Shown here: positions 1 through 23,366 of the stretch, in pieces
Numbering within the stretch: the stretch's first letter is position 1
Layout of the letters: each line of letters starts with the position of its first letter
From: Lachnospiraceae bacterium AC2029
GTDB taxonomy: Bacteria; Bacillota; Clostridia; Lachnospirales; Lachnospiraceae
DNA: 64,000 nt
NCBI GenBank assembly: GCA_000703065.1
Contig: JNLK01000001.1
Coordinates: forward strand, 992,001 to 1,056,000
Direction of reading: 5' to 3'
Translations under genes and position numbers: made by a program
The notes under the pieces: generated by a model
Seen by the model: only the letters and a program-made list of their open reading frames with translations
What the model was told of the DNA's origin: nothing
Databases searched by the model: none

Positions 1-3000
1 TCGGTAAGCTGTATGCCGCCGAAGCGAAGCGTTGCCATTTCATAATCTCTCTGATTCACAACTGCTTCCGCCTCGATCAATCTGTCCATGGCGTTTTTGC
101 GTTCTTTGCTGCCGTCTCTTTCGGAAACTTCTTTCTCTTCGCTTCCCGCCTCACCGGCTTCGGCTTCAGACGTCAGATCGATTTCTTCCCCGAAGGAGAT
201 CTCCGAGAATTTCAGCGTTCCCTTCTGTTCCTGAAGTCCGGGATGCTCAGCCTCATACTCGATACGCTCATCGTAGTTTGCATCATGGGAATCACGGCTG
301 TCGGATATGTAATCCTCCCATGCTTCCTCTCCTTCTTCTCCGGAGAAGTAGTAATTCTCATGCTCTCCGTTCTCGAACATGTCAACGAAAAGTTCCGGAA
401 CATCAATATGGAAGGAGGTACGTGAGGAGGGACTCATGATGGCAAATGCCTGTCCGCGCTTCGCATTCAGGATGTCCTCCTGCTCCTGCTCATTGATTCC
501 TCCGGCCTTCTCATACAGACGGCAGAGATCATCCATATCATTCGGTGCAAGACCGAATACAAAGCTGTACTGGCACGCATTGATGATCGCCGTGGATTTC
601 CGCGCGATCTCCTCACTGCCCACGAAGTCCTTGATATTCTGGGTGATAACGATCTGCATACCATTATACTTACGGATACGCTTTGCCAGCTGGAACATGA
701 AGTCCAGTGCAACCGGGAACTTGGTATCGATGAATACATGCGCCTCATCGATAACTACAACAACCTTTCGGTTCAGGTTATATTTCAGGTTATAATCACG
801 GTTCTTGATGATCTCATTATCCACATACTTCAGAACCAGAAGCATCTGCGCATTCGCTATGGTCGAGTTCCGGTTGGCCAGAAGGGACTGGAAATTGAAT
901 ACGGAGAAGTTCTCATCCGTTGTGATGGTGGAAGGGCCGTTCCAGATGTTCGCATTTCGTCCGCCGGTGGAGAACTTGGAAATATAATTCACCAGAGAAC
1001 GGAGCAGCTGACGCAGATAGTCGTTGTTCGTTCTCTCGAACTCTGCCAGGACTACGTCATATAGGTCATCAAAGATCGGATAATCCTCGGCATGCAGTCT
1101 GGAGAGATCTGTCTCAGCCGTGATACCGAAGTTCAGATACACACGTTCTACCAGTGAGTTCAGGTACTCGAGAGCGTCCCTGTCGATATCCGGAAGGATC
1201 TGACGGAAGAACTCCTCCAGGAACTGCAGGTGTGTGGCAAAGCTTCCCGCAGGTCCGCCGGTTTCTCCTGCCTCGTCATCGTCCAGTGCGGTGATGATGT
1301 GGAAGGGATTCAGACGTCCGTAGGTCGCATTTCCTACATTGATGATCTTACCGTGCAGGTTATGTGCCAGCTCCGAATACTCGTTCTCCGGGTCCAGGAT
1401 AAAGATTTTGGAATCCTCGGAAGCCAGATTCAGAAGCAGGGACTTGGTGGTATAGGATTTACCGGAACCGGATTTTCCTACGATAACCATGTTGGAGTTG
1501 ACACGCTCGGAATCTCTGCGGAAGAAATTGATAAATACCGGTACTCCGTCAGAGGAGCCCAGCTTCACGCCGCCTTCATCCGAAACATGCGCAAAGATCC
1601 ACGGGTACATTCCCGCGATCGTATTTGTAGGAATACCTCTGGCTTCCTTCAGCATCGGGTCATACGGAGATACCTGGGATCCGATAAAGCTCTGAATCTG
1701 CAGAAAGTCCATGCCGTTCAGCTTCATGCCCGCCTCGGCCCAGGTGTGGCGGAGCGTCTTCTTCAGGTCCGGCACCATGGGCATCAGAGTCTTGAACCCG
1801 TCATTCAACATCGGATCTTCTTTCGTGGCCATCGCATCATATGCCGTGACGTAGATATTCACGGACATCAGCGCCTCATTTTCCTGCTGCAGCGTAACCA
1901 GAAGGGAAGACAGGGTCTCGATATGCTCCTGCAGCTCCAGTCTTCTGGAGTCCACACCTGTGGCATTATAGCGTGCACGCAGTTCTGCCAGAGAACGATC
2001 AATAGCCCGGATGGACTTGGCGCGATCCATGGGCGTGGTCTTGACTATGACCTTACTTCCCGGGAAGGACATCACACCTGCCAACCAGGCATCTCCGACA
2101 GTAGACGGATAACTGATCACCCGCAGATTATGGGTGATCATTTTATTCACTTCTATCCGGCGGGAGGTGATCCTCAGCATTTCCGGCATTGCCCAGTCAA
2201 CCCAATGCTCCTGTGGGATCTCATCGATCTGTCTCTCGTCGAAATCAAGGGTGTTGGAGTACTTCAGGAAAATGGCGAGCCCCCGGTCATCCAGTCTCCG
2301 TACCTCCAGTTCGCCCTGAGCCAGGGAATTGATTGCCTGGTTCATCATCGAATTCAGCTTTCTTCTGTCCCTGTCGAAAAGGACCAGATAGTAGAAGGAC
2401 TCCACAACCATGTTGTCCGTACAGAGATCATCGATCTCGCTGATCCGGGCAAATTCTATCTCGGTCCTGGCCTTCAGCTCATCCTCCGTGAGAAGTCCGC
2501 TCTCATAGGATTTCTTCAGGCTGTCCAGCTTACCGTACTCCATCTCCAGATACCGGTCATACATGATCGGCCGCTGCAGCTTGACGATATTGGCTCCGTA
2601 CTCACCGCTGAGCGAACGGAGGATTTTCCCCAAACACTGCTCTATGGAATTGTCACGCCGGATCTTGGAGAAGAACCGGAATTCCACGGGATCGATCTCG
2701 ATAACCGCGCCGAAATACTGTCCCGCATATTCGATGAACTTATCCTTGATCCCCGTGAAGGGCATAAGGTTGCTGATATCATCATAGTCCGATGTGTTAT
2801 CCTTATTCTGCGCCTTTTTCTTTTTCTTTTGAGCGGTTCGCTCGGCTCTGGCAAGCCAGACGGCATTCTTTTCCTCTTCGGTAGCCGTCTTGCTCTTCAG
2901 GATCCTCTTCTCTTCCTTCAGGATCTCCTTCAGATTCTTCTCTTCTTCCTGTTTCTGCTCCTCCGATACTTCTTCCTTATCCTCCTCATAGAAGGCATCC

Positions 3001-3278
3001 ACCGCCTCCTGCCGGTCTCCGGACAGTCGGGCCAGCGCCTTGTCATCATAGACGCGGGCGTATTTTCTCGGATATGCCTGATACCGGAGCATATACCAGA
3101 AGAAAATGTAGATCGGATTGTCATTCACCCGCACCAGCGTCATCCCGAAAATGCCAGCCACAACCAGTGCGATGATCCATCGATATGGCAGCGATGATAC
3201 CGCACAGAGTGCAGCGATCCCAAGGCCTACCAGTGAGACGATAACATCTGACAGGGTAACCCCTCGGAACAACTCCAT
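1..3278 (-). CDS. VirB4-type type IV secretion ATPase with PrgI-like N-terminus (3' end cut by window)
   Basis: This is the energising ATPase of a type IV secretion system, acting at the inner face of the membrane. The frame is open for 1092 codons from ATG 3278 and runs off the left edge without a stop. Residues 1-80 contain two predicted membrane segments followed by a YxxYPRKY-like stretch, resembling PrgI-family proteins that are usually a separate gene. A charged coiled-coil linker (about 85-165) follows, then the ATPase. Walker A GKSGSGKS lies at residues 601-608 and Walker B VVVVIDEAH ends in D844-E845. It is the last visible gene of the operon that starts at 11546, 57 bases behind the TrbL-like gene. 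The family assignment is firm; the PrgI assignment rests on topology and motif resemblance. Downstream components such as a cell-wall hydrolase or relaxase could lie outside the window. Confidence 0.88.
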   Translation of the reverse strand, partial: MELFRGVTLSDVIVSLVGLGIAALCAVSSLPYRWIIALVVAGIFGMTLVRVNDNPIYIFFWYMLRYQAYPRKYARVYDDKALARLSGDRQEAVDAFYEEDKEEVSEEQKQEEEKNLKEILKEEKRILKSKTATEEEKNAVWLARAERTAQKKKKKAQNKDNTSDYDDISNLMPFTGIKDKFIEYAGQYFGAVIEIDPVEFRFFSKIRRDNSIEQCLGKILRSLSGEYGANIVKLQRPIMYDRYLEMEYGKLDSLKKSYESGLLTEDELKARTEIEFARISEIDDLCTDNMVVESFYYLVLFDRDRRKLNSMMNQAINSLAQGELEVRRLDDRGLAIFLKYSNTLDFDERQIDEIPQEHWVDWAMPEMLRITSRRIEVNKMITHNLRVISYPSTVGDAWLAGVMSFPGSKVIVKTTPMDRAKSIRAIDRSLAELRARYNATGVDSRRLELQEHIETLSSLLVTLQQENEALMSVNIYVTAYDAMATKEDPMLNDGFKTLMPMVPDLKKTLRHTWAEAGMKLNGMDFLQIQSFIGSQVSPYDPMLKEARGIPTNTIAGMYPWIFAHVSDEGGVKLGSSDGVPVFINFFRRDSERVNSNMVIVGKSGSGKSYTTKSLLLNLASEDSKIFILDPENEYSELAHNLHGKIINVGNATYGRLNPFHIITALDDDEAGETGGPAGSFATHLQFLEEFFRQILPDIDRDALEYLNSLVERVYLNFGITAETDLSRLHAEDYPIFDDLYDVVLAEFERTNNDYLRQLLRSLVNYISKFSTGGRNANIWNGPSTITTDENFSVFNFQSLLANRNSTIANAQMLLVLKYVDNEIIKNRDYNLKYNLNRKVVVVIDEAHVFIDTKFPVALDFMFQLAKRIRKYNGMQIVITQNIKDFVGSEEIARKSTAIINACQYSFVFGLAPNDMDDLCRLYEKAGGINEQEQEDILNAKRGQAFAIMSPSSRTSFHIDVPELFVDMFENGEHENYYFSGEEGEEAWEDYISDSRDSHDANYDERIEYEAEHPGLQEQKGTLKFSEISFGEEIDLTSEAEAGEAGSEEKEVSERDGSKERKNAMDRLIEAEAVVNQRDYEMATLRFGGIQLT

Positions 3279-3335
3279 TTTAACTTTTGTTTTACCGGGT
3301 ATCAGTCGCATGTGTTTCTCTGCCCCTTGTTTTTA

Positions 3336-5483
3336 TTACCTGTTATCACCATCGCCATCTCCGTCGTTGTCAACGTTAAGCTGGGCGCCCCGGCCCTCTC
3401 TGCGCGGAAGGTTCGGATCGGCACCCTGTCCGGCACCCGCTCCGGCTCCCTGTCCGCCCTCGCGCTGTTCAGCCAGACGTCTCCGGAGATTTGTAGGCAG
3501 TTCTCTTGCCTTCTCAGCAGCCTCTCTCTTACGATCCAGATCATCCTGCTTCATGTCAACATCGGCAAGTTTTCTTGCCTTGTTGAGTGACAGACCGTCC
3601 TTCTCCATATGATTGTAGGTCGCCTTCATATGATTCAGCTCGTTCTTCTTCAATGCCGAGCCGTCACGATGTGTATGATTCTTGTCCGCGTAATCGATAT
3701 CCGCCTTGAGGGAGTTCATATCTCTCTGACGGCCGCGCTCTCTTGTATGCTGTACGTGTGCAGGGTCCTTGGACTTGTCGTGCTCCTTAACGATACCGAC
3801 AGCTTCTGCCGCACCACGAATGGCGCGTCCCACCGAAGCAAGGCCGGTGGCTTCCGCAGCCTTTCCTGCCCACTTGCCTGCCATGTTCTTTGCCGCACCG
3901 CCGACAGCACCGGCAACCGCGCCACCCACAGCGCTTCCGCTCACGGAATTCAGTGCACGTCCGACAGCACTGCCCTGAACCTCATTTCTTACATCACCGG
4001 CCAGGATCGCCTGATAGCCCGCCTGATCAGCGAGAATACCGGTAAAGATACTGTTTACCTTATTCACTGCGGTGATTCCGCCATAGGTGATGACAGCCTT
4101 GATGATACACTCCAGGATCTTGCTGGAGGAGATGGACAGGCTCGATCCCCACACGATAGGAAGGAACATAAGGAACAGACGCATGGAAAGCACCATTCCC
4201 ACTACACCCAGCAGCTGAACGATAAAGGCTGTCGTCCACTGCTTGAACTTTCCTCCGTCATCCAGCGGCATGGCGGAAATTACCAGCGGCGATGCGATGT
4301 AAAGCGCCAGCAGGTTGAACAGACGTACGGCACAGGTCACGATAATGACCAGCATTTCCATCAGTATGGCGATGGAGATCACATATACCAGAATATAGTT
4401 CATATATGCGGGACTGGGATTGAATGCCGCCTTCACGTCATCCCACTTATAGATACTCTTCTCTCCGTAATAGAACGGCTGTCTGACACTGTCAAAGAAA
4501 TCCGGTTTGTAATTATATGCGGAGTTTCTTGCCGCAGCCTGATCTCCGACGGTCCCCATGGTACCGATCAGGAAGATGATACGATCCATCGGAACAACCT
4601 CCGTGTCCTTGGTTTCCATATCGACCTTCCGCTCGTATGACTTCAGAACCATCATCGTCGGATTCGCCCGCAGGATGTCCATGGCGTTCAGAAGCGCATT
4701 TGTAAGACCATCGTCATAAGCGTCCAGCATGGCTTCTTCCCTATAGTCATAAGCCGCCGCCAGTTCTTCCATGACGCTTTGCCAGGTAGGTACGACCTCT
4801 TTCTTATCGTTGTATGAGACGTAATGGAAGTTGAAGACTCCCTTCTCCGCCAGGAACTGCAGATCTCCCCGAATGTCATTGTAACAGGCGTTCAGGTTGT
4901 ACCGCGATCGCCAGGACGGATTCAGGGAATAGTTTCCTATGGTATTTATGACTCGCCCCATGGCTGCATACATCTCATCCGTAAAGACGATCTTGTTATC
5001 ATCCGCAACAACGTTGTTATTGGTGATGGCCTCACTGACAGACCTGGTCAGAACGTTCGTCACAGACAGTGCCACGATCATGATCGCATTCATTCCTACG
5101 ATCAGAAGGATACTCTTCAGAAGATTTCCGATGATACCGCCAAGAGTCACTCCCTGCTGCTTGTCCCGAAGATCTCCGATCTTCCGGACGACGGCTATGA
5201 TCGCAAAGGCAAAAGCAAACATGATACCGATTATGGCTATCCCGGTATAGATCCCACGTATCGCACCATGATTAAAGAACACATCGATCAGGGTCGTATC
5301 CTCGGTATTGTAAGTCACAGTCCTTTCGCCGGTGAAGACCATCATGGAATCCTCCACCAGCTTCAGAATTCTGAGAATTACCGTCTCAATGAGGTATAAC
5401 AACCTGTAGACCAGGTTCTCGAGCAGGGATTGAAACCAGTCTTTAATTTTATCGATCGCATCGTTGAAAACGTTGTAGAACAT
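3336..5483 (-). CDS. TrbL/VirB6-like polytopic type IV secretion channel protein
   Basis: Predicted inner-membrane channel component of the secretion system, 715 residues. The N-terminus has an amphipathic start and hydrophobic segments near residues 30, 85-110 and 125-150. A long soluble loop (about 165-365) follows, then a second cluster of four or more membrane segments (about 365-490). After these comes a Gly/Ala-rich stretch and a highly charged cytoplasmic tail that ends in a Gly-Ala repeat and an acidic DGDGDGD run. This layout is typical of TrbL/VirB6 proteins, which are poorly conserved in sequence, so the call rests on topology and on the position between VirD4/VirB4 genes. GAGGATT precedes ATG 5483. 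The tail repeats are probably unstructured. No catalytic motif is visible. Confidence 0.72.
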   Translation of the reverse strand: MFYNVFNDAIDKIKDWFQSLLENLVYRLLYLIETVILRILKLVEDSMMVFTGERTVTYNTEDTTLIDVFFNHGAIRGIYTGIAIIGIMFAFAFAIIAVVRKIGDLRDKQQGVTLGGIIGNLLKSILLIVGMNAIMIVALSVTNVLTRSVSEAITNNNVVADDNKIVFTDEMYAAMGRVINTIGNYSLNPSWRSRYNLNACYNDIRGDLQFLAEKGVFNFHYVSYNDKKEVVPTWQSVMEELAAAYDYREEAMLDAYDDGLTNALLNAMDILRANPTMMVLKSYERKVDMETKDTEVVPMDRIIFLIGTMGTVGDQAAARNSAYNYKPDFFDSVRQPFYYGEKSIYKWDDVKAAFNPSPAYMNYILVYVISIAILMEMLVIIVTCAVRLFNLLALYIASPLVISAMPLDDGGKFKQWTTAFIVQLLGVVGMVLSMRLFLMFLPIVWGSSLSISSSKILECIIKAVITYGGITAVNKVNSIFTGILADQAGYQAILAGDVRNEVQGSAVGRALNSVSGSAVGGAVAGAVGGAAKNMAGKWAGKAAEATGLASVGRAIRGAAEAVGIVKEHDKSKDPAHVQHTRERGRQRDMNSLKADIDYADKNHTHRDGSALKKNELNHMKATYNHMEKDGLSLNKARKLADVDMKQDDLDRKREAAEKARELPTNLRRRLAEQREGGQGAGAGAGQGADPNLPRREGRGAQLNVDNDGDGDGDNR

Positions 5484-5547: not shown

Positions 5548-6531
5548 CTATCGTACGCGAAGTTTCTTTCTTGTAACGATAAGAGCGATCGCAATTCCCT
5601 GGATCAGAAGAATGACCGCAAGGATAAAAAGAACCGCATTGAAATTCAGATACAGCAGGATCCGAAAATCCTTCTCAATGGTATTCCCGGCGATATCGGT
5701 GACCACCACATGATAGTCTCCCGTCTCGGATACCTTATATTCCTCATCCATACCCACGACCTCATCCTCAAAAACGATTGAGATCCGGTCGCCCTCCTTC
5801 ATCCCGGCGATGGTAACCGGGCCGCGGGCTTCATCATTGTCATCCAGCCCGATGAACAGGATGTCCGGCGGAGTATGATCGACCTCCAGCTCCAGCTTAT
5901 ATTCAGCGCCGGTGGCCGCGCATACATAATTGATCACATAGTTGCCTTCCTGCATCATGTCCACGGTTCCGGCGCCATGTGCCACGGGCGTACCGTCAAC
6001 GGTCACACTCTTTACCGTAAATCCTGTAGGAAGCACGTATCGTGTCAGCTTACCGGTTATATCGTTTACGATCCGGAAGGTAAGAAGCTGTGTCTCCGTG
6101 CTGTTCGTCCAGGTCACCACCACATAGGTTCCTTCTTCGGTGATCTCGGACGGTATCTCCTCCATGGGTTCGCCGTCCTTATAAACCGCCAGATTACACT
6201 CTCCGTCCTTCGAAAGGACCACACCTTCGGTTACTACCATTCCGTCTGCAACACTGCAGAGGATCCTGGCCTTCCCGGCCTTATAAATAAATCTGCGGGA
6301 GAAGCTGTTAAATGAAACCCCGTCTCCGATACGGACCTCCTCCGACGAGGACGTCTCGCTCTGTACGGGATCTCCCGTATAAATATCCAGTGGTCCGGTG
6401 TAGTCGATATACTGCAGATCCGAATCTGAAGAAACCTCCTCGGTATCGTCTTCAGGATCAGCGAAGACGGTCATACCGGGAAGCAATGCTCCACACATGA
6501 TAAATATAAATGTGATAACGAGTTTCTTCAT
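5548..6531 (-). CDS. secreted, C-terminally membrane-anchored Ig-like protein of the secretion operon
   Basis: An unrecognised 327-residue surface protein. It has a signal peptide ending near VFADPE, an acidic Ser/Asp/Glu-rich stretch, and beta-rich Ig-like modules, the last with the DxxGNT pattern of bacterial Ig-like domains (about residues 215-295). A final hydrophobic helix is followed by RKKLRVR, so it should be tail-anchored facing the outside. The upstream in-frame TTG at 6537 is less likely than ATG 6531, which has AGGAG at good spacing. A 16-base tandem duplication of the ribosome-binding-site region (6530-6561) overlaps the VirD4 stop codon. Its place between the VirD4 and TrbL-like genes implies an accessory role in the envelope part of the machine; this is inference. 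Confidence 0.7.
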   Translation of the reverse strand: MKKLVITFIFIMCGALLPGMTVFADPEDDTEEVSSDSDLQYIDYTGPLDIYTGDPVQSETSSSEEVRIGDGVSFNSFSRRFIYKAGKARILCSVADGMVVTEGVVLSKDGECNLAVYKDGEPMEEIPSEITEEGTYVVVTWTNSTETQLLTFRIVNDITGKLTRYVLPTGFTVKSVTVDGTPVAHGAGTVDMMQEGNYVINYVCAATGAEYKLELEVDHTPPDILFIGLDDNDEARGPVTIAGMKEGDRISIVFEDEVVGMDEEYKVSETGDYHVVVTDIAGNTIEKDFRILLYLNFNAVLFILAVILLIQGIAIALIVTRKKLRVR

Positions 6532-6559
6532 TCTCAACTCCTGTTATTCTCGACTCCTG

Positions 6560-8578
6560 TTATGCAGATTCGTCCTCGTCCGACTGGAGTTCGCCGAGAA
6601 CGGTCTCGTTCCGGACATCCAGATCATAGAACACCTCATCCGCCTTGAACATATGACTCCTCAGTTCATCCAGATCCATGCGCCCCATCTGATAGTAAGG
6701 GCACTGATAGCTGGGAGTATACTTCGTCCGAAGCGGGAAGTTACCGAAGGTAACGATGATCGCGTTTCCGGTGCTTTCCTTGTTGTTCAGCATCTGCAGC
6801 TCGGACGGATAGATCAGCGGTCTTACCTGGCTCTGGGTGGAGAGGTTCAGATCGCCGGCTCTCGCACCGATCGCAGAGGATGTGGATGTGGTCTGTACCG
6901 TCATATTTCCGCAGAGCTTGGAGAACTCTTCACAGGTTCCGATATCATTGGAACCGATGAACATCTTCATACCGCAGTTGGACTTGACGATGTCCGCAAC
7001 CTTCTCTCCGTATACGTTGTTCAGCTGAGAGTAGGACTGTACCACCATGTTGAACCAGATCTTTCTGGAACGACCTACGGTGATCATCTTGTCGAACTTT
7101 TCGATCCTCGGCATATTACCGAACTCATCGAGAATGAAATATACATTTCTCGGGAGGGATAGATCCTCTCTTGCGGAAGCAACCTTGATCAGCGCCTTGT
7201 ACATACAGAGTACGAATACGGCCGCCAGTCCGTGACGGGTATCCTTCTCGTCCGGAATCTTCATAAACAGCGCCGTAGGCTGATCCGCGAATTTCTCCGC
7301 CTGTACGTCGGTGGCGGAGGTAAGTCCGCAGAGTCCACGGTCGTTGAACATATTCAGTTTGTCAAAGGTAATGGACATGTAGGAGGAAAGCGTGGTGTCC
7401 GCAGCCGACATAACCTGACGTGACAGGGTATAGGCCTGGGACAGCTTGCTGCGTCCGTTGAAGTAGTTCTTCAGAGCTGCAAACTCATCCTCCGAATTGG
7501 TCAGGGCCTTGTTGATATTGAAGAAATTGAACTTCTCCTTCGTCATGCCCAGACGCTCGTCCTCGGAATCCTCCAGCATGGCAAGTGCCGTAGCCATGAT
7601 GATGGAACGTGCGCCCTTCTCCCATACGGGATCCTTATCATTTTCGATGGGACAGATAACGGAGATCAGATCGTTCAGATCTTCATACATCTCGTCATAG
7701 AACTTCTGCCGGGTAACAGCCACATCATCCTTGCAGTGGTCGAGATCGGAATAGGCCTGTCCTCGCCATTCCACCCAGTACTCGCCTTCTTCGGCTTCCC
7801 CGTCCATCCGTTTCAGATCCTTATAATCGCTCATCCGGTCCTTATGGAGCTTGATCTCCTTTCCGGCCTGAACATACTCCTGATACAGATCCCAGATCCC
7901 CTCCAGCGGATTCCACCTGGAAGAGGTGTAGGTGTCACGCAGATCCAGAAGCAGCACCTTGTAGCCCCGGGACTGCAGATACTTAGAGTGCAGGTCGAAA
8001 AGCTCACCCTTCGGGTCCGTCATGATCATGGAACTTCCTGCAGAGGTTGCTGCCAGAAGCTGGATCATGGGGTTGATGAAGGTGGTGGTCTTACCGGAAC
8101 CGGTAGCACCGATGACCAGCGAATGGGCGCCTGCCAGGAAATTCACCTGCAGGTGATTCTTTTTATCCAAAACCGCACGTACCGGAATCCCGTCCTGCTT
8201 TACATTTGCCAGATCCTCATAGACGTGCTCCGGGAAATACTTATCTCTTTCCTTCTCCGTCAGGAACCGGCTGTTCTCAAGAGAGCCCTTGACCACATCG
8301 ACCTTACCCTTCCGTCCCAGGAGCTTTCCCGCCTTCTCGAAGATATAAAAGTCCAGATTGTTTCCGGTCAGGATCCAGATGATCATCATCACCAAAGACC
8401 CAAGGAGTCCGAACAGCCATGTCTTCAGTTCAAAAACGATTCCGAAACTGATCTCCCATTCCTGATCATTCAGTGTGGCAGGAAGCATGATCGCGATCAC
8501 ACGGATCACAACTCCTGAGATCAGGGTGACCAGAACGAAGAGTGCGATATGTAAGATAAGTTTCTTTTTTTTATCCAT
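6560..8578 (-). CDS. VirD4/TraG-type coupling ATPase of the type IV secretion system
   Basis: Coupling protein that selects substrates and feeds them to the secretion channel, 672 residues. Two N-terminal membrane segments (about 8-33 and 52-71) are followed by the motor domain, with Walker A GATGSGKT at 157-164 and Walker B FILDEFGN near 480-486. The TraG/VirD4 motif around GRSRKIWFNMVVQS follows. The C-terminus is acidic. ATG 8578 has GGAGGAGG upstream. The gene ends within the ribosome-binding-site duplication of the next gene, so the two are probably translationally coupled. In conjugation this protein receives a relaxase, but no relaxase gene is present here. That leaves the large proteins at 14672-23276 as candidate substrates (inference). 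Confidence 0.92.
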   Translation of the reverse strand: MDKKKKLILHIALFVLVTLISGVVIRVIAIMLPATLNDQEWEISFGIVFELKTWLFGLLGSLVMMIIWILTGNNLDFYIFEKAGKLLGRKGKVDVVKGSLENSRFLTEKERDKYFPEHVYEDLANVKQDGIPVRAVLDKKNHLQVNFLAGAHSLVIGATGSGKTTTFINPMIQLLAATSAGSSMIMTDPKGELFDLHSKYLQSRGYKVLLLDLRDTYTSSRWNPLEGIWDLYQEYVQAGKEIKLHKDRMSDYKDLKRMDGEAEEGEYWVEWRGQAYSDLDHCKDDVAVTRQKFYDEMYEDLNDLISVICPIENDKDPVWEKGARSIIMATALAMLEDSEDERLGMTKEKFNFFNINKALTNSEDEFAALKNYFNGRSKLSQAYTLSRQVMSAADTTLSSYMSITFDKLNMFNDRGLCGLTSATDVQAEKFADQPTALFMKIPDEKDTRHGLAAVFVLCMYKALIKVASAREDLSLPRNVYFILDEFGNMPRIEKFDKMITVGRSRKIWFNMVVQSYSQLNNVYGEKVADIVKSNCGMKMFIGSNDIGTCEEFSKLCGNMTVQTTSTSSAIGARAGDLNLSTQSQVRPLIYPSELQMLNNKESTGNAIIVTFGNFPLRTKYTPSYQCPYYQMGRMDLDELRSHMFKADEVFYDLDVRNETVLGELQSDEDESA

Positions 8579-11546: not shown

Positions 11547-11610
11547 AATGTCTTCCTCCTTATTTGAGTGTTTTTCGGGTTTGTCTCCCTTTTTTTGTTT
11601 CGCTGAGCTG

Positions 11611-11644: not shown

Positions 11645-11668
11645 CGAAAAATACTTTTTGAATTTTTT

Positions 11669-13641: not shown

Positions 13642-13732
13642 GATCACTGTCTCCATGATCGTGTCTCTTCATGGCTGCAGTCTTCATGGCCGCAGTCTTC
13701 ACCGCCGCTTCCCGACGAACCGATAGCTTCGG

Positions 13733-14607: not shown

Positions 14608-14621
14608 TCTTTTTTATAATA

Positions 14622-14646
14622 AAGGCGACCGAATTTCGGTCGCCTT
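14622..14646 (-). terminator. hairpin terminator behind the large-protein operon
   Basis: A near-perfect inverted repeat AAGGCGACCGA/TCGGTCGCCTT is followed on the minus strand by TATTATAAAAAAG. It sits 26 bases past the stop at 14672 and separates the large-protein operon from the two-component operon. Confidence 0.7.
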
Positions 14647-14671: not shown

Positions 14672-17600
14672 CTACAGATTTAATTTGTTTACCCGCTTTG
14701 ACTTATGCTCCTCACCGGCCGGGACATCCTTGGATCTCGGCCCCGTTATCTCCGGCTTTTTGAAAGCATCCGCTTTATCCATAGCCTTCACCTTTTCCGT
14801 TACAGGTCTCGACTCAAATCTTACCAGTTCAATGGAGAGCTCCATATCCCGTACGGTAGGAGGCGTCTTTCCCGGAACACCGACGATCTTCTCGATAAAG
14901 AGTTCCGGCGAATAATTGATATATCCGTTTCCTCTGATATAATCACGCAGTCTTCCGCGGATCTCACGCTCCTTACCCGGATCACTCAGCGTCTTGCCCA
15001 CAGCGCTTTCCCCGAGATATTTCTCATCCAGTGCATTCAGCGCAATGTTCTTTGCGTCCCGAAGATTCCCGGCGCGTTTATTATACAGATTCTCCGCACG
15101 TCTGTACTGATTCACGATACTCTTCTCATTCTGGTACTTCCGATACGCAGCCTTGTCCCTGTCGAACTTATTCTTCTGCTCCGGATCCTTCGGAGCCTTC
15201 CCGGAGGTATAGATCGCCGTCTCCTGTTCGATGGCAACCTCCATTTTCAGCTTCGGATCCATTTCCTCAACCTTAACTCCCAGGCTCTTCGCCTGCTCAC
15301 CGATGGCCGTCTGATGCTTTGCCAGAAGCTTTGCCTCATAGAATTCCACCTGTCTCTCCATGGCTTCAACGATGTTCGGCGCATTCCTCAGTATCTCGGA
15401 ATTCATCTTCTTTTCAGCATCACCCTTCATCTTCTTCACGGTGGCCGTATAGTTCTTCCGTGACATCTTGGTTCTGTCGATCTGTTCCACATCCATTACG
15501 AGCGATTCGGTCACTACCTTTGTAGCACCTGCATAAGCGTCGGAGGGTTTCATGATCCGGAGGATCTCCTTATCATACGCATCCTTCAAAGCCTTCGATT
15601 CTCTCTGATCCCGCGTCAGAATCGCATTCCTCTTCGTTGTATACTCTGCGTTATCCTTCAGATCCTCACGCATCCGTGCACCGTTCTCGCCCAGATACGT
15701 TTTCATCAGAAGCTCCACATAGTTGCGTTCCTTCGTCCGTATTCCCCATTCATCCGGAGCGGCCTTCAGGCCCTCCTTTGCCATACGATCAGCTGCCGCA
15801 GCATTAGCAGCCTCGATCTTCTGATTCTTCAGGTGCTTCAGCATCTCCGGTTTAAGTCCCGAATTCAGCGCCAGATCCATAAGCTCACGGTCACGGTCCA
15901 GCATTCCCCACATACGGTGGCCCATCTCGGCACTGTAAAGCCGCAGATCCGAAGACTCCCTGCCATGTCCGATAGATGTCATATTCTTAATTCCCTCTGC
16001 GATCAGCTTCGCCAGCGGCTTTTTATCTCCTCTGTGGTATGCCTTCAAAGCCCTGTTCGCAATATCTCTGGCTTTGACGATGCCCGGCGTTACCTCTTCC
16101 ACGGAAACCGCCTTTCTCTTTGATCCGTCCGGTTCCTTTGCCGGCACACCCGCTGCCGCCCGAAGGATATCCATCCTGCGGTATGCATGTGCTTCTTCTC
16201 TGGTAAACCGCTTTGCAGGATCATCCCTGCGGGATTCCGTATCGCAGTCCATGGTGGTGGATGCCGCAGCCGCAAGTGCCACGAAATCCTTATTTGATAT
16301 CATATCCGTTTTCTTTCCGGAACCGATGGCCTTCGGTCTCCGGGAGATCGGCTTGATGTTATCAAGTGCCTTAACATCGGAGAACTCCTTCAGGGAAAGC
16401 CGTTCCATTCCGAAAAGGTCTTCGAGCCTGTCGAGTCCCTTTCGGGCTCCCTTCGGAATGTAGATCCGGTCTTTGAAGCTGGCCTTCTGATTCTCAGCCG
16501 CATCTGCGGCATTACTGACCAGTACATCCTGAAACTCATTATAATCCGCCTTCCAGTCTTCATTTGCCTGAAGAATGCCTGCCGTCTTACTCTTCGGTCT
16601 CAGACTCATCTGCATTTCGGAAAGATTCTCAAATACATCCAGGACCGTTCTGATCCTCGCCTGCTCGACATCCTTATTCCCCGGATCATTTTTCCGTCTG
16701 GGATCCTTTTCCATTTCCTTCTGCTTGCTGGAAAGATATGTCTTTGCAGCATTTCTCGCCCTGTCAATGGCATTTACCATCTTCCGCGCATCCTCCTCCG
16801 TAAAAGGATGATTCGGATCCGCTGCAGCCGCCTTTTCAGACGTCCGCTGAATGATGTCCATCTGCCCTAAGAGAAGCTTATACTCAGGAGTTGCACCCCA
16901 GAGATACCAGTGCTTATTCGCATTCAGATTCGTCGCCAGGCGGTCTGCAGTCTCCTTGATCCCCGAGAATTTATATTTACTCTTCAGCTGTCTGTAAAGC
17001 TCCTTCTCCTTGATCTCCAGATTCTGCCTCAGGGCATCCATCCGCTTTTCAGGATTCTTTACCAGGGTTCGCTCGAACTCTGCAGAATGATCCTTTCCTC
17101 CGATATCGAAGTCATCCTTACTCCTGCGTTCCGCCTTCGGCCGGGTATCATCCACCATCTTCTCCGGCTGCTCACTGCCCTTTTCTCCTTCTTTCTTCGG
17201 CGGCTCTCCTACGCTTTGTTCCGGACCCTTCTTCTCTCCGGACGTCTCTGCCCCACCGGGCTTTCCCTGCTCCTTTTCCGATTCCGATTTCGGTCCGGGA
17301 TCCGGATTCGGCCTGGGATTCGGATTCGGCCCGGGATTCGGATTGAGGTTCGGATCCGGTGCCGGATTCGGGATCTGATTGGGATTCCGGTTCTGGAAAT
17401 CCGGCCGCACCCTTTGCTGCTCAAACTCAAGCAGCCTCTGATGCATGGCAGGCTCTGCCAGCGCCGGGTCTGTCTTGCCCGGCTTGATATGGTAGAGATC
17501 ACGGTCTGCATCGACCAGCTTCTGCTCTGCCTGTGCATCTCTGTTGTCAGCCATGGTCTTCAGATATTCCGCATCCAGCTGCTTCGGGAGATAGACTCTC

Positions 17601-19339
17601 TCCATGTACTGAACCCCGGCGGAACCGTACCGGTTTACACCCGCGGGCGCAAAAACGTTCATCTCGTCATCTGCCGGACGCATGACACGTACGCCCATCC
17701 GGTTCAACGGATGGTCTCCCACATCTCCTCCCATGGCACGCATGGATTCCGGCTGCTGTGTTACGGAGCCGTCCGGATTCATATATACATACTCACTGGG
17801 AACCCCGTGGATCGTCTTGTGATCATTTGCCAGTTTGATATCGGAAAGCCAGCTGATCTCCACGGAGTGCGGTCTGTCCCTGAAAAAGGAATTTGTGACC
17901 AGATCCTCCAGGCTGATGTCATGAGACTCATCCGGATTTCCCGTTTTATTGTTCATTTCCAGGGAATCCTTATATCTTACGATATCCCCGTTAATACCGG
18001 TGATCGTGATATAATGTCCCGGCATAAAAAAGCTGACCGGAGAACGATCCTCCCTGATCGCATGAAGGATCTGCTTCTTCAGAAGCTGCACCGTATTCTT
18101 CACATACTGATCCGAGGAGTAGCCGTCCCGTTCATTCGCTACGGTAAAGGGCTGGATCTCCAGGGAACGCATCATGGAATTCGGAGCATACTTCAGGACG
18201 GAGTCCGCATTTTCCACAATACTCTTGTAGTCATCCGTTCCATAGTTGTAATCCACATCTCCGTCCCTCAGAACCACCTCGTTCTGCGGGATGTTCGGAC
18301 GATAGAAACGGATATCCTCCTGCGTGATATCGCCCATTCCACGGCTCTTTGCCATGAGTGCACCTGCACAGGACCAGCAGCCGCAGCCGCTGCTCTGATG
18401 TGCGGTCTGATGGATATCCAGCTCAGCCGCATCATCCCGGTCCACCAGAAGATTCGGACGTGTACCTATCTCCTGTCTCGCATCCATCTGCTGCCGTGCA
18501 TTATCCTGGATCTCCTGGACCTTCACAGCGGTCTCCCTGTGCTTCTGAAGCATAAAGCGGTCACGATAAGTCAGCTTCTCCTCAGGATTCTGCTTGTTAT
18601 TGTCCTCCTGAAGATACTGATCGATCGCATTGATATCTCCTGTATGCTTGATCCTGAGATCGATGTTCGAATCGACGGACGGATACTCATACATACGCGG
18701 GTTCGTCTGAACAGCCTGCTGATATTCATTCCTGATCTGTTCCGGAGTGCTGTTGATATACATCTGCAGCGCCATATCCTCCGTGATATTCGGATCGGTG
18801 GTAAACATTCTGGCATATTCATAGAAGCCCGGCCATTTCTGCGGGGCATTTGCATTCGCATACTGACCCGTCCGGATCTCCGCATCCGACTTGAAGGTTG
18901 CCGCCGGCAGCGTAAGGCCGTCATCCGCACGGAAATGCTTCACGATCTCCTTATCGTGATTCAGGATCCTCTCCGCCTCCCGGAAGGGGCTTGCTTCCTT
19001 CCCGTTCTGCAGCTTCTGCGACGGAAAGAGACTCTGCTTCATGGCCGTAAAGGACTGCGAAACATAATCATAGTATCCCTTGAGTTCCTCCACGTCCTGA
19101 CCGCTCAGGATCTTAAACGCACCCTTTTTGTTCTTTGAATACAGCGTATTCACACGGTTCTGAAGGATCGAAACGACCTCCATCGTGCTTTCCGCCTGAT
19201 CAAGAATATCCTTTTCCTTCTTAGCAGCATCTCCCTGCAGATTCGCACTTCTGTTACGTCTTTTCTGAATATACGCCGATATCTGTGCTGTCTGCTTTTG
19301 CAGTTTTGTAAGCGTATCAAGTGCTTTATAACTATTCAT
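14672..19339 (-). CDS. giant cytosolic protein with papain-like Cys-His-Asp region; candidate secretion substrate
   Basis: A 1555-residue protein of unknown function without signal peptide or membrane segments. The start is ATG 19339 behind GGGAGG; the in-frame TTG at 19381 lacks a site. Residues 1-310 are helical. A cysteine-rich segment follows with C319, C321-W322 and C324, then GHYITITG with H442 and RYKD with D458. The Cys-Trp, His, Asp order and spacing match papain-fold proteases, including Trp after the cysteine. A proline/asparagine-rich linker (about 646-686) separates this from some 850 residues of charged, mostly helical sequence. The C-terminus is basic (HKSKRVNKLNL). It is the last gene of a three-gene operon sharing its promoter box with the secretion operon. 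Role as an effector is inference; the protease call is moderate. Confidence 0.72.
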   Translation of the reverse strand: MNSYKALDTLTKLQKQTAQISAYIQKRRNRSANLQGDAAKKEKDILDQAESTMEVVSILQNRVNTLYSKNKKGAFKILSGQDVEELKGYYDYVSQSFTAMKQSLFPSQKLQNGKEASPFREAERILNHDKEIVKHFRADDGLTLPAATFKSDAEIRTGQYANANAPQKWPGFYEYARMFTTDPNITEDMALQMYINSTPEQIRNEYQQAVQTNPRMYEYPSVDSNIDLRIKHTGDINAIDQYLQEDNNKQNPEEKLTYRDRFMLQKHRETAVKVQEIQDNARQQMDARQEIGTRPNLLVDRDDAAELDIHQTAHQSSGCGCWSCAGALMAKSRGMGDITQEDIRFYRPNIPQNEVVLRDGDVDYNYGTDDYKSIVENADSVLKYAPNSMMRSLEIQPFTVANERDGYSSDQYVKNTVQLLKKQILHAIREDRSPVSFFMPGHYITITGINGDIVRYKDSLEMNNKTGNPDESHDISLEDLVTNSFFRDRPHSVEISWLSDIKLANDHKTIHGVPSEYVYMNPDGSVTQQPESMRAMGGDVGDHPLNRMGVRVMRPADDEMNVFAPAGVNRYGSAGVQYMERVYLPKQLDAEYLKTMADNRDAQAEQKLVDADRDLYHIKPGKTDPALAEPAMHQRLLEFEQQRVRPDFQNRNPNQIPNPAPDPNLNPNPGPNPNPRPNPDPGPKSESEKEQGKPGGAETSGEKKGPEQSVGEPPKKEGEKGSEQPEKMVDDTRPKAERRSKDDFDIGGKDHSAEFERTLVKNPEKRMDALRQNLEIKEKELYRQLKSKYKFSGIKETADRLATNLNANKHWYLWGATPEYKLLLGQMDIIQRTSEKAAAADPNHPFTEEDARKMVNAIDRARNAAKTYLSSKQKEMEKDPRRKNDPGNKDVEQARIRTVLDVFENLSEMQMSLRPKSKTAGILQANEDWKADYNEFQDVLVSNAADAAENQKASFKDRIYIPKGARKGLDRLEDLFGMERLSLKEFSDVKALDNIKPISRRPKAIGSGKKTDMISNKDFVALAAAASTTMDCDTESRRDDPAKRFTREEAHAYRRMDILRAAAGVPAKEPDGSKRKAVSVEEVTPGIVKARDIANRALKAYHRGDKKPLAKLIAEGIKNMTSIGHGRESSDLRLYSAEMGHRMWGMLDRDRELMDLALNSGLKPEMLKHLKNQKIEAANAAAADRMAKEGLKAAPDEWGIRTKERNYVELLMKTYLGENGARMREDLKDNAEYTTKRNAILTRDQRESKALKDAYDKEILRIMKPSDAYAGATKVVTESLVMDVEQIDRTKMSRKNYTATVKKMKGDAEKKMNSEILRNAPNIVEAMERQVEFYEAKLLAKHQTAIGEQAKSLGVKVEEMDPKLKMEVAIEQETAIYTSGKAPKDPEQKNKFDRDKAAYRKYQNEKSIVNQYRRAENLYNKRAGNLRDAKNIALNALDEKYLGESAVGKTLSDPGKEREIRGRLRDYIRGNGYINYSPELFIEKIVGVPGKTPPTVRDMELSIELVRFESRPVTEKVKAMDKADAFKKPEITGPRSKDVPAGEEHKSKRVNKLNL

Positions 19340-19381
19340 CCTTTGTTCCTCCCTGACGGTTCTGTCTTCGATTGGAAACAA

Positions 19382-21577
19382 TTACTTCGGCTTCTTTGCG
19401 GCCGTCGCCACCTTCTTGGAATCTGTCTCTTTACTCTTCACGGCTTCTTCGGCCTTCTTTTTCATTTCAGCCAGATACTTTTTCCTCGTGATCCCGTAAC
19501 GCCTGCTTAAATGATTGATACCGACATTCTGGATATCCAGATGCTTCGGCGTATTGATATTATGCTCGACACCTCTGGCGATATTAATGTCCCGTAACAT
19601 GCCTCTTAACCGCACATCCGAGCCCACATCCGTCTCGGAATCTCTGTGAATGAGACTCATGGCATCCAGACAGCTGTTGAAACGGTCCATGTCATTCTGA
19701 ACCCTTTCACTGGCATCCACACCTCCGAATACCTTCATCCTGCCTTTTCCGCGCATATATTTCACTGCGGCATTCTCAATCTCTATATTTGCCTGTATAT
19801 AGTCCTTGTCTTTTGCTTTCTTCGGATCCAGCCTGTACGCCCGGTTCACCGCGTTTACAAATGCCTGGTAATCCGGCGTCACAGCCCTGGGGAATTCCTC
19901 CACGGTCATGTCGATGGATTTCTTCAGCATGCCCATATGGATCTTATAATTTTCTCTGTTGGCAGCAGGGATCCCATACAACTTCCGCTCCTGTTCAACC
20001 GCAAACTCCACTGACTTGGCCGGATCCATCAGCGCCGTCTCCAGGTCCTCCTTGTCCATGGCCCAGATACACAGTGTATCCTTGATCTTATCTGCCATCT
20101 TGTGGATCTTATCCACATTGAAGGATTCCTTGCTGTTCTGTACCACATTTGCAGCCAGAACCCTTGCCAGGCTGTCCTGCATCTTCTCCACGGGTTCATC
20201 TATGACAAAATATCCCGTATGAAGAATACGATAGGATTCAAAGGATTTTGGTAGTTCCTTCTTCACTCTGGGAAGAGTCGCCTTCACCGCCCGGATCTTC
20301 TCCTTCAGGGCTCTTTGTTCCTCCTGACGCTTCACATCCTCTTCGGCGCTTTCCCGAAGCGCATCCATAAGCACCAGCCTGTCTGATTCCGTCTTCGCTG
20401 TGGAATCCTCCGGCAGCTTAATTTCCGGCATGGCAGCCTTCCTCGCGGCAGATCCGTCAAGGACGCTCTCCAATACCTCCTGATTCCTCTCCAGTGCCTG
20501 CTTCTTCGCCTTCCGGAGCTGCTCCTTCGCCTTCTTCTCTTCCAGTTTCTTAAGTGCTTCCGCCTTCTTCTTCATTTCCGCGGCAAGCTTTTCCGCGTCC
20601 TGTATCTTTCTTCTTTCGAGCGCCGCCTCATTTTTCTTCTTCTTCTCGGCAAAATCAACCTGCTTTTTTATCTCGGCCTGTCTCTTCCTGAGTTCCTGCT
20701 TCTCGAGGGCGTCAAGGGAATCCTCAACCTGCCGGACCTCCTCATCACTGACCGTGTGATCTGCGATCTCCGGATCTGCTTCCTTCATCCTCCCCGCCGT
20801 AGCGGATCTTTGTCCCATGGTCATATACTCGATGAAGTGATCCTTCGTTATTTTGCCCTGTGCCTTCTGATTTACCTTCTCATCAGCAGGCCTTGCCGGC
20901 TGTTCCCGGAAGATCACATCCTCCACCTTGCCGGCCTCTGCTGTTTTATTGTCATCGACGCCGTACCGGGCGCCGCGCCGCATCAGGAGCGCAGCAGCTT
21001 CATTGATGGTCTTTCCTCCGAGACCTTCCAGAGCATATCTTCTTCGTACGGCCTTTTCGGAGTCAATAATAACGGTTTTCCCATCCTCCACATCCGCAGG
21101 GAATGAATATGCCTTCTTGATCGTATCATAAAGCCCGGAAAATGCGGTCTTCAGCTTTGCAGCTCCACCGATGCCGTTCCTCCACATGCAGTCGATGATC
21201 GTATTGACCACCTTCAGTTCCTTACAGGCCTTCTTCATGCCTTCCGGATCCGTATAGTCAACCTCCGGCAGTCTGTAGTTCTTCAGGGTATTCATGGCCT
21301 CCGCATAATCCTGGGCAGGCAGTATGGATTGTTTTGCTGCCGTCGGATTTGTACCGGAATTAATAGATTTCTGAAATGCATTCAGTTCCCTATTCGGATT
21401 CTCGCATATTTTCAGTATTTCATCCAGTTTAAACCCGCGGGAGCCGGCCAGCCAGATCATAAAATCCCCTTCGCCGGTAGGATCCAGTCCCTTCCGTAGG
21501 AACTCCGAATCCGTATTCTCGAAGATCTTCCGCCCCATGGAATCCAGCTGTTCATTTGTAAAACTAAAGTTCGGCAT
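19382..21577 (-). CDS. large coiled-coil cytosolic protein; candidate secretion substrate
   Basis: A 731-residue protein that I do not recognise. There is no signal peptide or membrane segment. Residues 270-400 form a long Glu/Lys/Ala coiled coil with many KKK and EEK runs. The rest is charged and mostly helical. The last 30 residues are strongly basic (repeated KKK, ending KKPK). AAAGGGGG precedes ATG 21577, and the gene lies 22 bases behind its upstream neighbour. Its stop codon is 42 bases before the preferred start of the next gene. It shares operon, size class and basic tail with its neighbours, which suggests functional equivalence rather than sequence homology. No enzymatic motif is visible. 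Confidence 0.72.
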   Translation of the reverse strand: MPNFSFTNEQLDSMGRKIFENTDSEFLRKGLDPTGEGDFMIWLAGSRGFKLDEILKICENPNRELNAFQKSINSGTNPTAAKQSILPAQDYAEAMNTLKNYRLPEVDYTDPEGMKKACKELKVVNTIIDCMWRNGIGGAAKLKTAFSGLYDTIKKAYSFPADVEDGKTVIIDSEKAVRRRYALEGLGGKTINEAAALLMRRGARYGVDDNKTAEAGKVEDVIFREQPARPADEKVNQKAQGKITKDHFIEYMTMGQRSATAGRMKEADPEIADHTVSDEEVRQVEDSLDALEKQELRKRQAEIKKQVDFAEKKKKNEAALERRKIQDAEKLAAEMKKKAEALKKLEEKKAKEQLRKAKKQALERNQEVLESVLDGSAARKAAMPEIKLPEDSTAKTESDRLVLMDALRESAEEDVKRQEEQRALKEKIRAVKATLPRVKKELPKSFESYRILHTGYFVIDEPVEKMQDSLARVLAANVVQNSKESFNVDKIHKMADKIKDTLCIWAMDKEDLETALMDPAKSVEFAVEQERKLYGIPAANRENYKIHMGMLKKSIDMTVEEFPRAVTPDYQAFVNAVNRAYRLDPKKAKDKDYIQANIEIENAAVKYMRGKGRMKVFGGVDASERVQNDMDRFNSCLDAMSLIHRDSETDVGSDVRLRGMLRDINIARGVEHNINTPKHLDIQNVGINHLSRRYGITRKKYLAEMKKKAEEAVKSKETDSKKVATAAKKPK

Positions 21578-21599
21578 CTGCCATACCCCCTTTTACGGT

Positions 21600-23276
21600 T
21601 CATTTCTTCTTAGCTTTTGTCAGTTCCTTTATCGTCTTTTTTACGTTCTTCGCTGTTTTTACCCGTTCTGCATAGATCCTCTTTGCGACGCCGCGTTCAA
21701 AGTCACATGCCAGGAACCTGCATACGTTCTCTCTGACCTTCTCTCCTTTTATCATCGGATCCACGATCTTTCGGAACGTCTTACTCTCGGCAAGTTCCTC
21801 CGACATAGTCTCAAACGTCCCCTGATTGATATGGTTTTTGATCTCATCAAAATAAAACCTCGGTTCTCCTTCTTTCCTGCGCATATCATCGGAGATCAGC
21901 TGATGTATTACCAACGCGGCCAGTCGCTCCCGGATCAGCGGAAGCCGGTCTTTTTCGACATTTTCCTGATCATCCAGCTGTCCCAGCAGATCCTGAAGCT
22001 TCTCAACCGCCCAGACCGAGGTATTGGACGTGAGGTCTCCCTTTCCTTCCACGAGAGCCTTCTTACGCTGCTCCAGCTCCACCGGCGTCAGTTCCTTATC
22101 CGCACGCATGCCCCGCTTCGCAGCCATTTGTTCCATCCGCTGCAGCTTGGCCAGAGCCCCCTTATGCAGTCTCACCTCATCACTCTCAACAAGGACCGTG
22201 TCATCATCCTTCGGCAGCTGCCGATAGACGTACCACCGTTCCATCTTCCTTCGGAGCTCATTGTTCTTCTGAAGGACAGAATCCCTTTCCATCTGCCTTT
22301 CAATGGGAGAATACATCATAAGGGATTTCTCATACATCATCATGACCGTGGTATAGTCCTTCGCCCCCGAATCCATATCCATGGCCTGCTTCATCTTCTC
22401 CTCGCCAAAATCCCGGATCTTCTTCAGAAGCGCCTTCTCACGCTCCACCAGTTCGGGAGTAAACCCATTTCCCTTCTCAAAGCTGCTCTCTCCCAGTATA
22501 TACTTTGTCTGCAATTCCCTGGTGATCTTCTTCAGATCATCAACCTCGGCCATCACATCCGTGAAGAACCGGCGGTCCTCATCCCTGATCTCGTCACCCT
22601 CCGGGGAAATGAAATGATCCCTGACATATGCACCGGTGATCGTCTCCACCATCTCGTAACCGTTCTGGCGCTTCAGGAACTTACGGAACTGCTCTTCATT
22701 CTGATCGAAGTCATCTCCAAGCTTCAGGCTGTAAAAAGCAAAGGTCCGGGACATCATCCGTTCGTACTCCGCCCGGAAGTCCTCCTCCTCTCTTTCCAGC
22801 CGGTTCGGGTCTTCCTTCGCCATCTTCTGCAGTTCCTCATCCTTCAGGATGTCATCCACATCCTCCCTCTTGGTGAAACGGAAAATGTCCTCGGCAAAGA
22901 TCGCATCCGCCACGGAATTGAAGAGATCATCAAATGCCGCTGTCTTCTTCTCCTCCCGCTTCAGATATTCGGACTTCATGCGGAGATTCTCATTTACCGC
23001 TCCGACCATCATGACAAGCCCGATGAGCTTGTTGATGGCACGCCGCTCCTCTTCGGTCCTGGCCTTCTGCATCGACACCTGTATCTCTTTCTTTGCCGAC
23101 TCCATCATGCCGATCTGCCGGCTGACCCAGGCCATCTCCTTCTTCGCCCGCTCCGCAGCTTCGTCTTCGGAATGCTCCGCTTCGTACTTAAGCTTTCCCA
23201 GCCGGTCCTGCAGCTGATAGATGGTTCCATCTATGGATTCCAGTATTTTTTTTGCATCTGCTCTTCTACTTCCCAT
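21600..23276 (-). CDS. coiled-coil cytosolic protein; candidate secretion substrate
   Basis: A 558-residue unrecognised protein, first gene of the operon. ATG 23276 has GGAGGG six bases upstream; the in-frame TTG at 23282 would overlap that site. Almost the whole sequence is charged and helical, with coiled-coil character at residues 15-110 and 270-380. It has no export signal. The C-terminus is lysine-rich (TIKELTKAKKK). The promoter carries the same 18-base box as the type IV secretion operon. Homology to the two following proteins is not obvious by eye, although all three share low complexity in charge pattern. Function is unknown; delivery by the secretion system is inference. Confidence 0.72.
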   Translation of the reverse strand: MGSRRADAKKILESIDGTIYQLQDRLGKLKYEAEHSEDEAAERAKKEMAWVSRQIGMMESAKKEIQVSMQKARTEEERRAINKLIGLVMMVGAVNENLRMKSEYLKREEKKTAAFDDLFNSVADAIFAEDIFRFTKREDVDDILKDEELQKMAKEDPNRLEREEEDFRAEYERMMSRTFAFYSLKLGDDFDQNEEQFRKFLKRQNGYEMVETITGAYVRDHFISPEGDEIRDEDRRFFTDVMAEVDDLKKITRELQTKYILGESSFEKGNGFTPELVEREKALLKKIRDFGEEKMKQAMDMDSGAKDYTTVMMMYEKSLMMYSPIERQMERDSVLQKNNELRRKMERWYVYRQLPKDDDTVLVESDEVRLHKGALAKLQRMEQMAAKRGMRADKELTPVELEQRKKALVEGKGDLTSNTSVWAVEKLQDLLGQLDDQENVEKDRLPLIRERLAALVIHQLISDDMRRKEGEPRFYFDEIKNHINQGTFETMSEELAESKTFRKIVDPMIKGEKVRENVCRFLACDFERGVAKRIYAERVKTAKNVKKTIKELTKAKKK

Positions 23277-23313
23277 TATCAACCCTCCAAACCCAGGTTA
23301 ACATGCTAAGTTG

Positions 23314-23347
23314 ATTGTATCATCTTTCAGATAACAAAAGCGCAACA
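23314..23347 (-). promoter_or_regulatory. promoter of the large-protein operon with the same 18-base box
   Basis: On the minus strand TGTTGCGCTTTTGTTATC (23330-23347) is followed after exactly 10 bases by TACAAT (23314-23319), 38 bases before ATG 23276. All 18 bases of the box match the secretion-operon promoter, whereas the flanks differ. This argues for a bound regulator rather than a recent duplication. Confidence 0.78.
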
Positions 23348-23366
23348 AAATAAGATCAGGTCACGC

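Follow-up and report, generated by a model that had tools for sequence, protein, structure and literature searches.

A chromosomal type IV secretion locus with candidate modular effector proteins in Lachnospiraceae bacterium AC2029

The DNA analysed here (the window, 64,000 nucleotides) comprises bases 992001–1056000 of the genome of Lachnospiraceae bacterium AC2029, which is a single contig of 3.86 Mb. It includes genes for a type IV secretion system (T4SS) next to genes for three large proteins of 1569, 731 and 560 amino acids (aa), none of which has a membrane-like segment. This raises the question of whether the machine transfers DNA or delivers proteins and, in the latter case, whether the large proteins are its substrates. 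An earlier interpretation made from the letters alone (the sequence-only reading) had proposed a chromosomal protein-delivery machine with all three large proteins as cargo. The sequence was lengthened by 40 kb leftward of the window, and positions left of the window are given as negative numbers. The locus covers ~36 kb, from −13196 to 23282 (genome 0.979–1.015 Mb), and exceeds the extent noted earlier. It is probably a protein-translocating T4SS with modular effectors that is derived from a conjugation system and resides on the chromosome. Protein translocation is the best reading because a resident conjugation-type machine is found together with a co-distributed modular protein family that has secretion-signal-like ends and effector-like domains.

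The secretion machine and its residence on the chromosome

Four components of the machine score above the cut-offs of their families, namely VirB4 (PF19044, 58.2 bits against 25.8), VirD4 (NF045973, 293 bits against 250), a VirB6/TrbL-like protein (NF045848, 126.6 bits against 90) and a VirB2-like pilin (PF18895, 41.4 bits against 26.6). These four features place the machine in the T4SS superfamily. The N-terminus of VirB4 is weakly PrgI/VirB3-like (PF12666, E 0.037, under the cut-off), and orf343 and orf329 are candidates for VirB8-like proteins by topology alone. As the sequence-only reading had described, the VirB4, VirD4, TrbL-like and pilin genes stand together with genes for two exported proteins, separated by short gaps and on the minus strand like every other gene of the locus.

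The arrangement recurs in related contigs, taken as the best 80 of 304 encoding stretches from a scan of named genomes; many of the related records carry rumen in their title. An orf329 homologue lies immediately after virD4 in 73/80 contigs, and the order virD4-orf329-trbL is found in 68 of the 76 that have two further genes. Immediately before virD4 there is an orf777 or pilin homologue in 63 of the 78 contigs having a preceding gene, and a STAS gene follows virB4 in 46 of the 50 having a further gene.

VirB4, VirD4, a TrbL/VirB6-like protein and a VirB2-like pilin are also common to the Gram-positive CD1115-family conjugation machines of Bacillota integrative and conjugative elements (ICEs) and plasmids. 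In contrast to these machines, the locus has no linked relaxase or integrase that could be found, its VirD4 is less than 60% identical to every plasmid relative, and it adds a two-component system, STAS, RsbW and SpoIIE proteins, exported proteins of very large size and linked large cytosolic proteins. The relationship permits a rival explanation, in which a domesticated or helper conjugation machine acts in trans on mobilizable elements located elsewhere in the genome, with the large proteins being accessory to it or unconnected. VirD4 does fall in the conjugal CD1115 family, and relaxases that such a machine could serve are available: the genome has three of family PF03432 at 0.51, 0.62 and 2.27 Mb, and PF03432 was found in 29/61 genomes of the genus and 19/33 genomes of other lineages. 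In the latter group, G266 and G261 have a relaxase on the virD4 contig, at a distance of ~45 kb and ~66 kb, respectively, if contig numbers follow accession order. The nearest PF03432 relaxase of the AC2029 genome is, however, ~357 kb from the locus, and neither a relaxase nor an integrase family was revealed by Pfam in the scanned proteins from the locus and from a portion of its flanks, so that the absence of both noted by the sequence-only reading extended to the leftward sequence and the linked relaxase of an ICE was not seen. None of the 27 other VirD4-positive genomes of the genus has a PF03432 relaxase on the virD4 contig (many of these contigs are short), and five VirD4-positive genomes of 97–100% completeness (G061, G022, G070, G069 and G075) gave no PF03432 match at all. 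Likewise, among the families listed (25 of 98, so that single matches may hide), no relaxase or integrase family matched at least two of the 104 flanking open reading frames (ORFs) of related loci that were scanned (the non-redundant unknown ones number 206). The helper explanation also leaves the association of the machine with the module proteins described below unexplained, and it is considered distinctly improbable.

Within the genus, VirD4 proteins share 77–86% identity (91% and 74% for the two parts of the split gene of G010). VirD4 identity weakly tracks that of HisS (rho 0.49, p 0.03) in 19 of the 28 VirD4-positive genomes, the correlation omitting the own genome, partial and unmatched genomes and four with a HisS identity of 52–55%. 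No plasmid relative of VirD4 at 60% identity was found in 3212 records, and the eight matches listed are 27–34% identical. Given the distance or absence of relaxases, the VirD4–HisS correlation and the lack of a plasmid VirD4 at 60%, the machine is read as a long-term chromosomal resident that has been lost in some genomes, and some transfer between species may have occurred. The four genomes left out for their HisS (G008, G012, G023 and G074) have a best HisS merely 52–55% identical to that of AC2029, as if belonging to a second HisS lineage.

Large proteins, a shared helical module and basic tails

VirD4 (E ≤1e-30) was found in 28/61 genomes of the genus. The family of the 1569-aa protein occurs in 28/61 genomes (25 VirD4-positive), and a single genome can show as many as ten matched places, some of which share a gene. 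That of the 560-aa protein also occurs in 28/61 genomes (26 VirD4-positive) and is represented by a single gene per genome, the homologues aligning over almost the full length. One or other family is present in 27/28 VirD4-positive genomes versus 3/33 VirD4-negative ones, which bears out the supposed tie between the large proteins and the machine. The presence of three large signal-less proteins was likewise correctly recognised from the letters, though their treatment as alike does not hold. Profile comparisons placed the 1569-aa and 731-aa proteins in variable, shuffled families, in which a peptidase domain and C-terminal parts have been swapped between proteins. The conserved 560-aa protein looks like a partner of the machine, perhaps a chaperone or adaptor, rather than cargo.

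The 1569-aa protein and orfA share a helical module of ~110 residues, and 120 catalogued ORFs have it in a main or a diverged form. No Pfam model matched the module region in the proteins scanned. Searches from two seeds converged, all 45 ORFs from the orfA search being within the 48 from the 1569-aa search (a few are the same gene in two collections), and profile comparison linked the diverged form in the 731-aa protein to the main one (probability 93.9, E 1.5e-7). The structure model of window positions 16475–17059, which holds the module, is all-helical with a pLDDT of 92.5. The catalogue was reduced from 148 to 120 distinct ORFs of 284–2252 aa by dropping redundant ones. Of these, 91 have the main form, 33 the diverged form and four both, and 21 also have the peptidase domain. 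The set is a catalogue rather than a census, because regions were fetched for having matches. Another module protein of the AC2029 genome (483 aa, L222:4599-6050), the third, is encoded near 1.56 Mb, unlinked to the machine.

A simple hydropathy test indicated no membrane-like segment in 104 of 106 module ORFs, those cut at the N-terminus having been removed from the 120. A second set of 106, obtained via 114 by removal of C-terminally cut ORFs and then of similar C-termini, was used for charge. The last 20 residues of these non-redundant ORFs have a mean charge of +3.2, as compared with −0.04 in 864 control ORFs (p 3e-24) and +0.67 in 216 charge-rich controls; the charge is at least +2 in 85/106.

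The main module occurs in 32/61 genomes of the genus, in 27/28 VirD4-positive versus 5/33 VirD4-negative ones (Fisher 4e-11). The association persists within HisS strata, which take in 42/61 genomes (9/10 versus 2/9 and 10/10 versus 0/13). Three other lineages (L154, L169/L174 and L179), with a VirD4 of 65–73% identity, likewise have module proteins adjoining the machine.

The combination of module and tail is similar in plan to the BID domain and basic tail of effectors of the Bartonella VirB/VirD4 system, and the positively charged C-terminal tail of the BID-type signal is found in the module ORFs. Bartonella is, however, Gram-negative, the module described here lies mostly in mid-protein, and its role as a signal is proposed by analogy. 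Homology to BID was not indicated, there being no BID entry among the sequence matches in the PDB or the structural matches listed.

The large proteins could instead stay in the cytoplasm, as components of the machine or as its regulators, and never be exported. Such a role would fit the absence of membrane-like segments, the mostly non-C-terminal location of the module, and the finding that many owners of the machine have the 560-aa protein and orfA conserved along most of the sequence; for these two proteins it may still hold. As an account of the whole family it appears quite unlikely, as up to 12 module matches were found per genome, many off the virD4 contig, and the proteins show strong divergence, domain shuffling, basic tails and, in some cases, enzymatic domains. 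The proposal that large proteins are substrates of a chromosomal protein-delivery machine thus gains from the module, the tails and these domains, and fails as a uniform statement for all three.

Large proteins of other kinds were seen in related regions. In G033, a 2901-aa protein without a Pfam match (L038:5646-14351) is encoded next to large-protein genes. In Ruminococcus and Pseudobutyrivibrio contigs (L126, L137, L139, L141 and L143), the machine has large proteins next to it that lack both a signal and a module match and are putative cargo at most.

Enzyme-like domains, proposed mechanism and targets

The 1569-aa protein carries a C39/papain-like peptidase fold, as its modelled domain (pLDDT 93.7) aligns with C39 peptidases and papain; activity is predicted. 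The catalytic Cys and His are conserved in 48/48 sequences each and the oxyanion Gln in 46/48. The window protein itself gave no C39 match in Pfam, and its homologue P0021 carries PF13529. The domain has its fold and the catalytic Cys, His and Gln in common with C39/papain-like cysteine peptidases; unlike C39 peptidases, it is embedded in a giant protein and has no ABC transporter.

Other module proteins have different domains. Pfam covered 40 of the 120 module ORFs in a pooled scan and 25 singly. The pooled scan returned three PI3_PI4_kinase and two Fam20C matches. In scans of single proteins, two module proteins encoded in other genomes, and none of the window, passed the PI3_PI4_kinase cut-off (31.6 and 28.8 bits against 27.1); they account for two of the three pooled matches. 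These two proteins (L259:5323-9315 and L241:2928-6923) have two PI3/4-kinase-like domains each, with an N.DR...N...IDND stretch that we take to resemble PI3/4-kinase-like catalytic loops. A 784-aa module protein of G027 (L257:2842-5196) includes an ADP-ribosylglycohydrolase domain (ADP_ribosyl_GH, E 4e-34).

In the mechanism proposed, VirB4 and VirD4 would drive transport through a channel that, judging by protein families, may be formed by the TrbL-like and other membrane proteins, and the pilin and the very large exported proteins would be placed outside the cell. The substrates would be large cytosolic proteins with the helical module and a basic end. By analogy with the Bartonella signal, VirD4 may recognise module and tail, possibly assisted by the 560-aa protein acting as an adaptor. 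The remainder of each substrate would be variable, sometimes including, by sequence or model, a papain-like peptidase, PI3/4-kinase-like or ADP-ribosylglycohydrolase domain. The two-component system and a SpoIIE/RsbW/STAS-type switch would probably control assembly or firing.

The target would presumably be another cell. The same delivery machine could carry antibacterial toxins against neighbouring bacteria. Some Gram-negative T4SSs kill bacteria, and the structural matches of the peptidase include papain-like toxins with immunity partners (9l5u and 8ssk). General pairing of toxin and immunity genes was nevertheless not apparent: by a crude count, of the 108 module genes with downstream room, 32 are not followed within 150 nt by any same-strand ORF, and for 22 the largest such ORF is small. 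There is also no small gene between the three large genes of the window, and the kinase-like domains seem closer to eukaryote-directed effectors. Bacterial targets are therefore held to be unlikely.

In the rumen, a eukaryotic microbe may be a likelier target than a bacterium, since kinase-like domains, ADP-ribose chemistry and the habitat make eukaryotic microbes plausible. According to one study (PMC6079354), Butyrivibrio is enriched among ciliate-associated bacteria and may be preferred prey. It is tentatively suggested, as a possibility short of an expectation, that rumen Lachnospiraceae, and Ruminococcus and Pseudobutyrivibrio relatives with other cargo families, inject a varying set of giant proteins bearing a new module and a basic tail (proteases, lipid- or protein-kinase-like enzymes and ADP-ribose hydrolases) into ciliates or fungi, and that the locus would represent a dedicated effector T4SS of Gram-positive commensals, similar in plan to those of Bartonella or Legionella.

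Several findings weigh against protein translocation or narrow its scope. The module is mostly internal: among 79 complete main-module proteins, the median position of its end is 62% of the protein length, and in 22 the end falls in the last quarter. Pfam matched nothing in most scanned module proteins. Among the five VirD4-negative genomes with the module, G030 has a VirB4 fragment, and the other four (G011, G017, G035 and G081, one of them 97% complete) have neither VirD4 nor VirB4 at E 1e-30; conversely, G007 owns the machine and gave no module match. Related genomes are non-independent samples, and inclusion of the four genomes with divergent HisS would weaken the HisS correlation. The genome-wide relaxase search was for PF03432 only. 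No peptidoglycan hydrolase family was found in the scanned locus proteins by Pfam alone, which can miss one. In an order-wide sample, VirD4 (E 1e-150) is present in 15/196 genomes and 9/97 genera, AC2029 included, and the main module solely in AC2029 (1/196). As 14/14 sampled VirD4-positive genomes of other genera lack it, the main module cannot be the signal wherever this machine occurs.

Protein export by a Gram-positive T4SS has a reported precedent. The 89K T4SS of Streptococcus suis, reported to secrete SspA-1, is the sole Gram-positive T4SS to which a review (PMC12857230) attributes effector export, and apparently the first example. That system is encoded by a pathogenicity island and its substrate is a subtilisin-like protease, whereas the locus described here is resident and accompanied by a modular family of signal-less proteins. 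No description of the present system was found in the titles and abstract openings of the open-access papers searched, a scope that leaves out subscription papers and preprints. The findings suggest that protein injection into other cells may occur among Gram-positive gut bacteria. Because the candidate is chromosomal, conserved and available in cultured strains, and its genes, a testable signal and a list of cargo can be named, the question becomes directly testable. If cargo entered ciliates or fungi, rumen ecology would gain a further layer.

Gene layout, regulation and neighbouring genes

The features of the locus are given in the table, from right to left in gene order; those from the STAS protein onwards lie left of the window.

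Table. Features of the locus in gene order, with positions relative to the window (position 1 is its first nucleotide)
Feature	Position	Strand	Evidence
560-aa conserved partner (chaperone or adaptor?), basic C-terminus	21600..23282	-	28/61 genus genomes
731-aa candidate effector	19382..21577	-	diverged module, residues 540-633 (19679-19960)
1569-aa candidate effector	14672..19381	-	family in 28/61 genus genomes
C39/papain-like peptidase domain (residues 217-631 of 1569-aa protein)	17489..18733	-	
Helical module (residues 815-924 of 1569-aa protein)	16610..16939	-	profile work and structure model
Hairpin and T-rich stretch, probable terminator of large-protein operon	14613..14645	-	inverted repeat read from sequence
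Response regulator	13733..14533	-	PF00072 E 1.9e-22
orf238, membrane protein between kinase and regulator	12940..13656	-	five hydrophobic segments; without Pfam match
Histidine kinase	11669..12919	-	PF06580 E 1e-15
VirB2-like pilin	11106..11645	-	PF18895 E 1.6e-10; NF045849
orf777, exported protein	8617..10950	-	N-terminal hydrophobic segment; no family above cut-off
VirD4 coupling protein	6560..8578	-	NF045973 'CD1115 family' E 3.7e-87; PF02534 E 3.5e-54
orf329, membrane-anchored exported protein	5548..6537	-	hydrophobic segments at residues 1 and 290; no family above cut-off
TrbL/VirB6-like membrane protein	3336..5483	-	NF045848 E 1.2e-36, NF045889 E 3.4e-24, both above cut-off
VirB4 ATPase (1536 aa)	-1299..3311 (1..3311 inside window)	-	PF19044 (TraG P-loop) E 7.8e-16
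STAS protein	-1605..-1306	-	
1950-aa exported protein	-7549..-1697	-	PLAT above cut-off, CBM_56 just under cut-off
orf343, anchored 343-aa protein	-8601..-7570	-	
orfB	-9356..-8619	-	
RsbW-like kinase	-9832..-9362	-	
orfA	-11390..-9846	-	
SpoIIE phosphatase	-13196..-11469	-	

The genes for the 560-aa, 731-aa and 1569-aa proteins are separated by gaps of 22 and 0 nt. The large-protein genes and the machine genes probably form two transcripts, because the hairpin with its T-rich tail, which the consensus scan did not list, divides the 1569-aa gene from that for the response regulator. The sequence-only reading had placed a two-component system between two operons that share a promoter box. Its position is as stated, but with a kinase–pilin gap of only 23 nt the two-component genes read as belonging to the machine operon. 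The shared box was not recovered, no 12-mer with at most one mismatch being common to the stretches upstream of the 560-aa and response regulator genes, and promoter-like sites are not enriched (12 versus a shuffle mean of 13.6). SpoIIE, RsbW-like and STAS proteins usually make up partner-switch regulators, and the set encoded in the locus may be tied to this machine.

The scanned proteins of the flanks resemble those of an ordinary chromosome and include the products of dnaX, decarboxylase and ABC transporter genes and a TraX family protein on the left and a group II intron maturase on the right. The group II intron reverse transcriptase/maturase (PF00078 and PF08388) is at window positions 24954–26408, just right of the locus. 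The TraX family protein (PF05857, E 3.6e-30; −14033..−13275) adjoins the left end. A functional tie of this protein to the pilin is possible, since TraX acetylates pilin in F plasmids.

In the scanned flanking ORFs of related loci, a PF07486 cell wall hydrolase was found in 6/104, perhaps the VirB1 equivalent elsewhere. Sigma-70-type domains occur in up to 7/104 of these ORFs (L105–L180) and may belong to a regulator of the machine in other lineages.

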